From Mumia sp. Pv4-285 (lineage in GTDB: Bacteria > Actinomycetota > Actinomycetes > Propionibacteriales > Nocardioidaceae), in NCBI RefSeq assembly GCF_041320275.1, contig NZ_CP162023.1, positions 4,092,001 through 4,156,000 on the forward strand: a stretch of 64,000 bases of DNA, in the 5' to 3' direction. The position numbers were made by a program, and so were the translations under genes. How positions within the stretch are numbered: position 1 is the first letter of the stretch; every line of letters starts with the position of its first letter. Positions 51,496 through 53,980 of this stretch are shown piece after piece. Under the pieces are notes generated by a model. The model was not told where the DNA came from. It worked only from the letters and a program-made list of their open reading frames with translations, and made no database searches.

Positions 51496-51533
51496 CGGAG
51501 GCTCCTCCTCGGGGTTCTCGCCCCGTCGGGTCG

Positions 51534-51648
51534 GACCTGCCGCGGTCAGTGTCTGGCTGTGCCGAGCACGTCGGCGTCACAGTGGCGGAACCGCCCCGGA
51601 TTCGCACCGGGTTCCTGGAGCCGCAGCAGGATGTGTGGCACGAGCGTA
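51534..51648 (-). promoter_or_regulatory. Cobalamin riboswitch for cobN-cobF
   Basis: On the minus strand GGAACCCGGTGCGAATCC, then GGGCGGTTCCGCCACTGT, is the conserved core of the cobalamin riboswitch, with a divergent B12 box (AGCCAGACACTGACCG) downstream. A TACGCT hexamer at 51643-51648 could be the -10. Adenosylcobalamin binding would turn cobN down; the CCTCC near the start may pair with the ribosome site. Confidence 0.88.
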
Positions 51649-51686
51649 CGGGACGGCCGGCCGCGTCCACCAAGCGCGCCGTGCCA

Positions 51687-51736
51687 GTGGTGAGCGCATG
51701 TCGTACGGCGGGCTCACCACCGGGTACGGGGCTCAC
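51687..51736. repeat. Hairpin repeat copy A flanking DUF559 gene
   Basis: GTGGTGAGC-N16-GCTCACCAC followed by CGG and GTACGGGGCTCAC. Copy B lies after the gene. In the 350-base interval 51496-51845 there is otherwise the cobN riboswitch and a GGGTTGT-CC-ACAACCC palindrome (51740-51755) holding an actinobacterial DnaA-box-like TTGTCCACA; no gene. Confidence 0.75.
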
Positions 51737-51845
51737 GGGGGTTGTCCACAACCCTTCCGACGCCTGTCTCCCGAACCGGGCAAGGTTGTCGCTCATGCAT
51801 CGGTGAGAGAGACGTGCACGGATCAAAGGGGGCTTCGTCACGCGT

Positions 51846-52820
51846 GTGGACGCCCTCGAGTGCGGCTATGGCGACCACGACCTGCGCGACGCGCTCAGGT
51901 CCGGCAGCTGGGTGTCGGTCCGCCGCGGGGTCTACGCACCCCGCGAGACGTACGCCCGTTTGACACCGCGCGAACGACATCTGCTGCTCTTGCGTACGGT
52001 CCTCGCCGAGAAGGGGCCAGGCTGGTTCGCTACGCATGACTCTGCTGTCGTCGCGCACGAGCTCGGCGACTACGGGCTCGGGACGTACGAGCTCGACCTC
52101 ACCGTCGCCCACGTCGCTCGCACCGGCGGCGCCACGAGCCGCCGCACCGCGTCGTTCCAGACCCACCGCGCCGCCGTTGATCCTGCTACGACGACAAACG
52201 CTGCAGGGCTGCCATCTGTCGAGGCCGCCCGTGCGGTTGTGGCAACCATGACGAAGCTCTCCCTCGACGCTGCAACGGTCCTCGCATCGACCTGGCTTGC
52301 CCGGCAACGTCGCACAGCACGCGAGTCCGGGCGGTCGGAGGAGTTCGACGAGGAGGACGCGCGGGCACGTCTGCGAGCGTTGCTCGACGACGGCGGCGCA
52401 CGACCGGGCACGCGCGTCGCGCGGGATGCCATCGACGTCGCGGACGCTCGATGCGAGAGCGTCGGCGAGGTCCGGTTCCTCGTCCTGTGCTGGGAGCACG
52501 GCCTGCCGCGCCCGGAGACGCAGATCGAGGTCGCGATCCCGGGTGGGCGCGCGGAGGTGGACTTCATGTGGCGCAACGTCGGCATGATCGTCGAGTTCGA
52601 CGGGATGCTGAAGTACGAGGACGACACCGGGCCGGAGGGTCGCAAGGCCAAGGACAATGTCATCGCCGAGAAGCGGCGCGAGCGAGCCCTGCGCGAACTC
52701 GGCTGGCACGTGGTGCGGGTGACGTGGGCGGACCTCGCTCCGGCGAATCGTGAGCGGACCGCCGCATACCTGCGCCGCGAGCTCGAGCGGGCGGCGAAGA
52801 TGCGGGCGCGACAACGGTGA
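51846..52820 (+). CDS. AbiEi-like N-terminus plus DUF559/Vsr-like endonuclease-fold protein
   Basis: The 324-residue protein has an N-terminal helix-turn-helix region like AbiEi-family antitoxins (GDHDLRDALRSGSWVSVRRGVYAP), a middle helical part, and a C-terminal DUF559/very-short-patch-repair-like nuclease fold: VGEVRFLVLCWEHGLPRPETQIEV, AEVDFMWRNVGMIVEFDG and LGWHVVRVTWADL, keeping the E...D...E-x-K-like acidic residues. Families of such genes are repeated in actinobacterial genomes. GTG 51846 is the first usable start after an in-frame stop; AAAGGGGG is 13 bases upstream. No partner toxin gene is adjacent. It is bounded by matched hairpin repeats and interrupts the cob region. Function is unknown. 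Confidence 0.7.
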   Translation: MDALECGYGDHDLRDALRSGSWVSVRRGVYAPRETYARLTPRERHLLLLRTVLAEKGPGWFATHDSAVVAHELGDYGLGTYELDLTVAHVARTGGATSRRTASFQTHRAAVDPATTTNAAGLPSVEAARAVVATMTKLSLDAATVLASTWLARQRRTARESGRSEEFDEEDARARLRALLDDGGARPGTRVARDAIDVADARCESVGEVRFLVLCWEHGLPRPETQIEVAIPGGRAEVDFMWRNVGMIVEFDGMLKYEDDTGPEGRKAKDNVIAEKRRERALRELGWHVVRVTWADLAPANRERTAAYLRRELERAAKMRARQR

Positions 52821-52833
52821 GCGCGCACCACCG

Positions 52834-52884
52834 GTGGTGAGCCCGCTCCACAACACGCGCTCACCACCGGCGTACGGGGCTCAC
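52834..52884. repeat. Hairpin repeat copy B flanking DUF559 gene
   Basis: GTGGTGAGC-N16-GCTCACCAC then CGGC and GTACGGGGCTCAC, matching copy A in stem, loop length and tail; only the loop sequence differs. It may also terminate the DUF559 transcript. Confidence 0.75.
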
Positions 52885-52892
52885 CTGTCGGG

Positions 52893-53579
52893 TCAGCGGG
52901 TCGCGGGCTCGAGTACGCAGTCACCGCAGTAGCCGCCGCCCGGCACGCGGTAGTAGAGGCAGCACGACCGCCGTACGAACCGACCTCGTACGACGTCGCC
53001 AGTGCCGTCGAACGGCGCGCGGGCGAGCGCGGCGACGGCGTACGAGGCGGCGGCCGGCACGAGGTCGGGGCGCGTCGTACGAAGGGCAGCGACCGCACCG
53101 AACAGCGCCGACGTCGCGTTTCCCCACAGGACGGTCTCCGAGAGAGCGAAACCAGCGGCGAACCGGTCGACGAGCGCGGTGAGCGTCTGGAAGGACGACT
53201 CTCGCTCGGGTCCAGGACGAGCGATCGAGGCTCCGCCGTCGACCGCGAGCGGCCAGGGTCCCGTCTCGAACGGGTGCCACCACGTCGTGTCGAGCGTCAG
53301 CGGCGGCAACCGTACGCCGAGCGACGCCGCCCCGACGACCGGCGAGAGCAGCCGCGCGAACAGTCCCAACGACACCGTCGAGGCCGCGACCCGTTCTTCG
53401 ACGTCAGCACCGGCGAGCCGGGACAGGAAATCCCGCGTGTATGCGACGCGCTCCTCCAGCGGCCCCGGCTCCACCAGGTCCGCGAGCGGACGCCACCCTG
53501 CACCAGCGGCGCCGTCGGGCAGTGTGTCGAGCGCGAAGTACGGCCCGAGGACGGACAACGCATCGTACGGACCGCTCAC
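52893..53579 (-). CDS. FhuF-like [2Fe-2S] ferric reductase family protein
   Basis: A 228-residue protein whose C-terminus carries RRSCCLYYRVPGGGYCGDCVL, the CC-x10-CxxC four-cysteine cluster of FhuF-type siderophore-iron reductases. The rest is a helical, Leu/Ala-rich domain with DTTWWHPFETGPWP. FhuF proteins reduce ferric hydroxamate siderophores in the cytoplasm; here it may instead supply electrons for corrin chemistry because of the cob neighbourhood, which is speculation. GTG 53579 overlaps the DUF2809 stop (GTGA). Confidence 0.75.
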   Translation of the reverse strand: MSGPYDALSVLGPYFALDTLPDGAAGAGWRPLADLVEPGPLEERVAYTRDFLSRLAGADVEERVAASTVSLGLFARLLSPVVGAASLGVRLPPLTLDTTWWHPFETGPWPLAVDGGASIARPGPERESSFQTLTALVDRFAAGFALSETVLWGNATSALFGAVAALRTTRPDLVPAAASYAVAALARAPFDGTGDVVRGRFVRRSCCLYYRVPGGGYCGDCVLEPATR

Positions 53580-53980
53580 CCGAACGCCTCCACGCTCGCC
53601 TCGGCATCAGCGGTGCCTGCCCGCGCGACGATTGCGCACAGCAAGCCTCCGAGCGCCGCCCCGATCGCGTAGCGCAGCAGGTCGGGCGCCCAGAACGTCG
53701 TCCCCAGCACGAGGCGTACGGCCGGCACACGTTCCGCCAGCGCAACCGGAACTCCAGTGAGCTGGAACAGCTCGATGACCACGCACACCGCAAAGCCGAC
53801 GACGCCGGCGGCAGGAGGGGACGTACGCGGGCGGACGGCCACGACGAGCAGGACGACGAGCGTCGCGTAGAGCGCATCCCCGACCGGCCCGGCGACCGGG
53901 GCGGGGAGAGCGGCCCGTGCCCCAAGGCCCGCGACGACCACACCGGCAGCGCCGAGGACAGTCAGGGTTCGAGGGCTCAT
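53576..53980 (-). CDS. DUF2809 family membrane protein
   Basis: A 134-residue protein with four hydrophobic segments. VIELFQLTGVPVALAERVPAVRLVLGTTFWAPDLLRYAIGAALGG is the pattern of DUF2809, a small unassigned integral membrane family. It opens the two-gene unit with the FhuF-like protein. ATG 53980 lies 9 bases after TAACAT. Confidence 0.72.
   Translation of the reverse strand: MSPRTLTVLGAAGVVVAGLGARAALPAPVAGPVGDALYATLVVLLVVAVRPRTSPPAAGVVGFAVCVVIELFQLTGVPVALAERVPAVRLVLGTTFWAPDLLRYAIGAALGGLLCAIVARAGTADAEASVEAFG

Follow-up and report, generated by a model that had tools for sequence, protein, structure and literature searches.

Nuclease genes boxed by cognate hairpin repeats in Actinobacteria: a possible counterpart of REP/RAYT systems

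Described enzyme/repeat systems and the locus studied here

REP/RAYT systems are the textbook case of a domesticated enzyme that sustains a population of palindromic repeats in bacterial genomes. Their unit is a single gene with flanking cognate palindromes, which is inherited vertically and absent from plasmids. The repeats are commoner where the enzyme is present, lie mostly between convergent or unidirectional genes, and need a short tag for recognition (PMC8049555, PMC3733652, PMC8266576). Inverted repeats also serve proteins of another kind: both the S. agalactiae AbiEi protein and M. tuberculosis Rv2827c control their own expression by binding such repeats in their promoters (PMC7319586).

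We analysed a stretch of 64,000 nucleotides of Mumia sp. Pv4-285 (hereafter the window), in which a pair of hairpins boxes a single ORF with cobN and an fhuF-like gene as neighbours (Table 1). Like REPtrons (RAYT/TnpA-REP with REP/REPIN) and TIRtrons, the system has a single gene boxed by cognate palindromes (in 70 of the 83 homologs studied below), dispersed gene-less copies that are commoner where the gene is present, a placement mostly between convergent or unidirectional genes, vertical inheritance, no match on plasmids, and a short tag that would matter for recognition. Unlike them, it has a protein with an AbiEi-like N-terminus and a Vsr/DUF559-type nuclease in place of a Y1 HUH tyrosine transposase, a tag that is gene-specific instead of the universal GTAG or CGTC tetranucleotide, hairpins of 50-110 bp with multiple tag copies, and hosts among Actinobacteria. 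Its copy numbers are modest (about 4-20 among the matches listed), far lower than those of REPs. Because there is no HUH transposase and the tags are neither GTAG nor CGTC, the nuclease/hairpin system is not a REPtron, though it may work alike.

The boxed gene, its protein and its hairpins

Table 1. Features of the boxed gene and its cognate hairpins, in window coordinates.
Feature	Coordinates	Strand	Details
Boxed gene, AbiEi-like DNA-binding N-terminus and Vsr/DUF559-type PD-(D/E)XK nuclease domain (predicted)	51846..52820	+	324 aa from GTG 51846
Nuclease domain (predicted)	52460..52730	+	E208 (52467-52469), D239 (52560-52562), E250 (52593-52595)
Left (upstream) cognate hairpin	51670..51736, core 51687-51720	-	GGGGCTCAC = intact right outer tag
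Right (downstream) cognate hairpin	52816..52885	+	four tags intact; overlaps the gene's stop codon (52818-52820)

The preliminary description of the locus called the product DUF559/AbiEi-like. The AbiEi half of this label is backed by PADLOC (E 4e-12), but DUF559 is sub-threshold in Pfam (E 0.016), where the 15.5 bits of the window protein miss the gathering cut-off of 20.6. The protein also stays under the cut-off for AbiEi_4 (E 0.002), and its match to the nuclease family MTES_1575 is weak. The Pfam families found in 74 homologs were only AbiEi_4, DUF559, MTES_1575, AbiEi_1, and AbiEi_3_N, with AbiEi_4 in 52 homologs and DUF559 matched by 4 at E 0.001. In the alignment of these homologs, E208, D239, E250, and G253 are invariant (74/74), D252 is kept in 72, and K256 in 70. 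This arrangement of acidic residues and lysine is the one expected of an intact PD-(D/E)XK/Vsr-type nuclease. An AlphaFold model, built on two sequences only, is poor at the N-terminus (mean pLDDT 50.7) and fairly confident across much of residues 206-324. Its top PDB neighbours in Foldseek, ranked by probability, are the homing endonuclease I-Bth0305I (catalytic domain) and then Vsr; probabilities are 0.97-1.00 for 1vsr, 1cw0, and 3r3p, with E values (0.09-0.35) that are non-significant alone. The C-terminal domain has the conserved residues and the predicted fold of the Vsr/DUF559 type.

The combination of domains sets the protein apart from both of its relatives. Vsr/EDxHD endonucleases (E. 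coli Vsr, I-Bth0305I) share the predicted C-terminal fold and the conserved acidic residues; unlike them, the protein is fused to an AbiEi-like domain, its gene is boxed by cognate hairpins, and neither a methyltransferase partner nor an intron was seen. The AbiE type IV toxin-antitoxin systems share the AbiEi_4-family N-terminal domain, and AbiEi proteins bind inverted repeats (PMC7319586), but here a nuclease domain replaces the C-terminal domain of the antitoxin. No AbiEii (DUF1814) toxin gene lies in the box or beside it at the window locus, where membership in AbiE therefore fails.

Orthologs of the gene occur in two of the five sister species that we compared (G001 to G005; the window genome is G000). 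In G001 the ortholog lies between cobN and fhuF and is 63% identical; in G005 it lies beside fhuF, without cobN, and is 60% identical. In G002, G003, and G004, fhuF is present without it. Not all relatives thus have the gene at this place, in line with the mobile or multicopy unit proposed earlier, but its presence beside fhuF in two sister species indicates that it is not a recent insertion. The homologous start of the window gene, ATG 51795, gives MHR and a stop: a TGA stands at codon 4 (51804-51806), where the G001 and G005 orthologs have leucine, after which the frame continues into the conserved N-terminus. Hence, the window copy is either translated from GTG 51846 or on its way to decay, and it may be partly decayed. 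The surrounding region is prone to rearrangement: cobN adjoins the fhuF-like gene in G000 and G001 only, and in the fhuF region of the five sister species (L170-L174) the fhuF-like gene and the small orf 53576-53980 next to it do not always come in the same order.

The stems and tails of the two flanking hairpins are present in the window letter for letter as first described. On the left, 51687-51720 reads GTGGTGAGC-N16-GCTCACCAC and is followed by CGGGTACGGGGCTCAC up to 51736; on the right, the core (52834-52867) is followed by CGGCGTACGGGGCTCAC. What had been taken for a 50-bp repeat has a real core and tail, but the full element is longer. It reads GGTGAGC-N11-GTGGTGAGC-N16-GCTCACCAC-N11-GCTCACC and makes a single long hairpin of about 70 bp, which carries four copies of the GGTGAGC-type tag, two on each arm, and whose outer stems base-pair despite sequence variation from copy to copy. 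Nor are the loops unrelated, as the differences between the two flanks had suggested: in most copies, read in one orientation, the loop is CCGNNCNACAACANGC. Five of six copies fold at -42 to -65 kcal/mol, which none of 200 shuffles equals. The left copy of the window, in which the left outer arm has decayed, folds at -32.5 kcal/mol, equalled by 4 of 200 shuffles. This hairpin lies just past a cobalamin riboswitch upstream of cobN (minus strand, 51527-51640; RF00174, 38.3 bits), which was the only element above threshold in an Rfam scan.

We searched the 4.65-Mb genome with the pattern GTGGTGAGC-N(12-20)-GCTCACCAC and found the 34-bp core at six places; the reversed pattern, used as a control, gave no match. 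Besides the two at the window gene, copies lie at 96.9 kb, 1225.5 kb, 4160.4 kb, and 4190.8 kb. The further hairpins that the preliminary description proposed to look for thus exist, and none of the four accompanies an intact gene. The copy at 1225.5 kb belongs to a 347-bp duplicate (L034:5346-5692; genome 1225.35-1225.69 kb) with 90% identity to window 52676-53017. Besides the hairpin, this duplicate contains the final 49 codons of the boxed gene and the terminal part of the fhuF-like gene; it lies downstream of an unrelated GTPase-like gene. We rejected segmental duplication as the entire explanation of the dispersed hairpins because it accounts for this one of the four extra copies only.

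Private hairpins across the family and their gene-less copies

Several paralogs of the gene in the same genome are boxed as well, each by a different hairpin. For each of 83 homologs, we scored the best ungapped alignment of the upstream flank (450 bp) with the downstream flank (250 bp). All but one were taken from the genus, family, and order of the window genome; the other is a distant homolog in a metagenome-assembled Actinomycetota genome (L051). The mean score was 36.5 for a gene's own flanks and 11.0 for mismatched pairs (n=2490), and 70 of the 83 homologs were boxed, i.e. their own pair scored above a value that 1.1% of mismatched pairs exceed. The other 13 were unboxed by this flank-match test; some are decayed and some full-length. 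As a control, 100 ordinary ORFs of the window genome were scored; apart from the family's own members, a SIR2-like gene and a marginal ORF were the only ones to pass. Taken together, the scores of own and mismatched pairs and the ORF control make boxing by private hairpins a property of the family. Even the distant homolog, the one member that a scan of genome contigs gave, is boxed, by a 51-nt repeat with 90% identity. The upstream hairpins start mostly 150-300 bp ahead of the match start, and each hairpin has several copies of a tag that differs by gene (GGTG, ACGA, and others). Phages, plasmids, and viral contigs gave no matches.

Some loci show further arrangements. Hairpins of its own ACTCAGCG type remain on both sides of a broken paralog of the boxed gene (L038:4928-5718; genome 3902.9-3903.7 kb). 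A 31-bp unit, GCGGTGAGCCTGGTCCCACCGGCGACGCCTC, repeated three times in tandem, runs into the upstream hairpin of a second boxed gene (L031:4633-4746). Another long hairpin repeat of the genus, of the type GGTCTCGATNCGC...GGTCGAGG, occurs upstream of the SIR2-like gene 5408-6226 in L036 and at L241:250-430. It may represent one more repeat family of this kind; no cognate gene was identified for it.

We then searched the six species for whole elements and counted the gene-less copies; all counts are tallies among 40 scored candidates per genome and hence lower bounds. The L039-type gene and its box are present in G000 (at least 14 gene-less hairpins), G003 (at least 15), and G005 (at least 8), and absent from G001, G002, and G004, which have 1, 0, and 0 such copies among the matches listed. 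The L031-type gene is found in five species, with gene-less copies numbering at least about 5 in G000, 20 in G001, 4 in G003, 5 in G004, and 12 in G005; G002 lacks it and has about one copy among the matches listed. Whereas the hairpins of the window gene have GGTGAGC tags, ACGAAGCC tags are found in both hairpins of its G001 ortholog and in the one hairpin, downstream, of the G005 ortholog. Gene-less copies of this ACGA type among the matches listed number 8 in G001, 2 in G000, 2 (weak) in G005, and none in G002-G004. Gene-less copies are thus commoner where the cognate gene is present for three hairpin types in six species. Most of those tested are present/absent polymorphic between species: every one of the four L039-type copies of G000 that we examined is absent from at least two and at most four relatives, and two also occur in other gene-bearing species.

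The gene-less copies sit at the 3' ends of genes, mostly between convergent genes. Out of 33 L039-type copies, 21 lie between convergent genes and 1 between divergent ones, against 11 and 15 of 66 gaps in an admittedly crude baseline. An alignment of these 33 copies, which come from three species, spans about 90 bp and shows 22 doubly changed cells where 9.7 were expected (covariation score 0.127 vs 0.064, reached in 0 of 500 shuffles, a control that relatedness of the sequences can inflate). To judge from this alignment, pairing in the L039-type hairpins is maintained by covariation. Being strong, rich in GC, and placed at stop codons, for the most part in convergent gaps, the hairpins might simply be ordinary bidirectional terminators with a chance resemblance to each other. 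We strongly disfavour this explanation, to the point of giving it hardly any credence: the T-run motif was not found, the stem sequence itself is conserved and gene-specific beyond what pairing requires, and ordinary genes are unboxed. The lack of T-runs, the tags, and the dependence of the copies on a cognate gene led us to reject plain terminators. The copies also recall solo-LTR or MITE remnants, since the terminal sequences of a gene-bearing unit occur alone as well, but here each terminal unit is a tagged hairpin with covarying pairing, no target duplication was seen, and the copies are constrained instead of simply decaying.

Empty sites occur in species that lack the genes. That of the L039-type gene is clean in G002, with flanks 7 bp apart, and holds an unrelated spacer in G001; that of the L031-type gene in G002 has a gap of 56 bp. 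We recognised no target-site duplication or precise junction at the empty sites, whose boundaries are blurred. Such sites would be in keeping with a homing-type selfish gene, which would cut a gene-less hairpin or an empty site and be installed by hairpin-guided repair, with the gene-less hairpins left by loss of the gene between two hairpins. The boxed layout is the one that insertion into a hairpin would leave, the best fold match is to the catalytic domain of I-Bth0305I and then to Vsr, and the 1225.5-kb hairpin has a gene remnant of 49 residues. Yet the empty sites examined contain no residual hairpin, the gene-less copies far exceed the genes and mostly lack any gene remnant, and orthologs keep the same locus within the genus. 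We therefore regard homing as improbable.

Comparison of orthologous hairpins suggests that the tags follow the gene. At the 96.9-kb site, which in G000 follows an acyl-CoA dehydrogenase gene, the tags are of the GGTGAGC type in G003, G005, and G000. In G001 the same stem carries AAGCC/ACGAAGCC tags (ACCA/ACGA-AGCC and GCTTCGT), which match the tag of the gene in that species, and the non-tag bases of the stem are kept between G001 and G003 at 15 of 16 and 13 of 15 positions. No such hairpin was found at this site in G002. The tags thus appear to have switched in place from GGTG to ACGA type, a reading that depends on one orthologous site. Plain copying of hairpins would be insufficient to cause such a switch, which suggests host selection or short-patch conversion; if it is general, the hairpins would be kept to the current specificity of the gene in place. 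The two boxing copies also change together, since both hairpins of the L031-type ortholog of G004 have GGTTCCC and those of other species GGTCCC. The substitutions specific to the window protein affect 5 of 32 N-terminal positions and 6 of 98 in the nuclease domain, a concentration that would be expected of a switch in specificity and is suggestive only.

Selection for continued binding, which the in-place switch suggests, is what one would also expect of an autoregulatory DNA-binding protein. The hairpins would then be its operator and terminator and the scattered copies a small regulon; the nuclease domain would serve something else, and nothing would be mobilised. The AbiEi_4 matches in 52 of 74 homologs agree with this, as do the position of the upstream hairpins, mostly 150-300 bp ahead of the match start, and the binding of known AbiEi proteins to inverted repeats in their own promoters (PMC7319586). 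However, the scattered copies are located 3' of genes instead of in promoters, the second boxing copy lies at the stop codon, the copies are insertions that some species have and others lack, and the catalytic residues are invariant, all of which makes autoregulation unlikely. A concerted change of tags, together with copies that track the cognate gene, could also reflect self-marking or addiction, in which the hairpins titrate or license the nuclease and protect the host, and hairpin loss or incoming hairpin-free DNA leads to cutting. PADLOC does group the N-terminus with AbiEi abortive-infection proteins. But the window shows no partner toxin or defence neighbours, the box fits one ORF, and the hairpins are too few, and too concentrated at the ends of genes, to serve as marks of a genome, so we consider this very improbable.

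A candidate mechanism and its significance

On balance, we lean towards the view that the window is one locus of a chromosomal actinobacterial system of a nuclease plus cognate hairpins, in which the nuclease recognises the tag and the hairpins spread at a low rate. What genome comparison gives us directly is the boxing, its gene-specificity, the invariant active site, the gene-dependent copies, the empty sites, and the tag switch at one site. The parallel with REP/RAYT systems, which holds point by point, makes binding, cutting, and low-rate dispersal of its own hairpin the most likely activities of the nuclease. In this scheme, a DNA-binding Vsr-type endonuclease would recognise a short tag present about four times per long hairpin. 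It would bind its own hairpin, as a single-strand hairpin or a cruciform, and might nick or cut it; replication and repair of the cut could then copy hairpins to new intergenic places at a low rate. The whole boxed gene would be moved or homed only rarely and be mostly inherited vertically, as RAYT is, while the repeats would form a small population co-evolving with the specificity of the gene. A PD-(D/E)XK nuclease belongs to another superfamily than RAYT and acts without a covalent tyrosine step, so that the reaction has to be a different one. The earlier suggestion of a nuclease-fold protein that travels with its own repeats, in the manner of REP-associated systems, is thus supported; that the protein moves them is how we read their distribution.

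More tentatively, and with somewhat less confidence than even odds would warrant, we propose that such loci form a widespread class of non-HUH hairpin repeats in Actinobacteria, in which a Vsr-type nuclease both disperses and polices gene-specific tagged hairpins, and tags are rewritten in place when specificity changes, by selection or by nuclease-directed short-patch conversion. We found no description of DUF559/AbiEi genes linked to hairpin repeats in the open-licence PubMed Central literature, and within that scope we rate the nuclease/hairpin system as new in kind, its layout being analogous to a known one and its components unrelated. It looks like an independently evolved counterpart of REP/RAYT systems. 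If this is true, finding the layout again in a non-homologous system would make the enzyme/repeat partnership a recurrent evolutionary solution. It would also provide a function for a large and unassigned set of genes for AbiEi-plus-nuclease proteins, account for many of the hairpin repeats at the ends of actinobacterial genes, and offer dozens of natural nuclease/tag pairs for tests of recognition. Finally, tag switching at orthologous sites would make the causes of repeat persistence, host benefit or selfish spread, directly testable.
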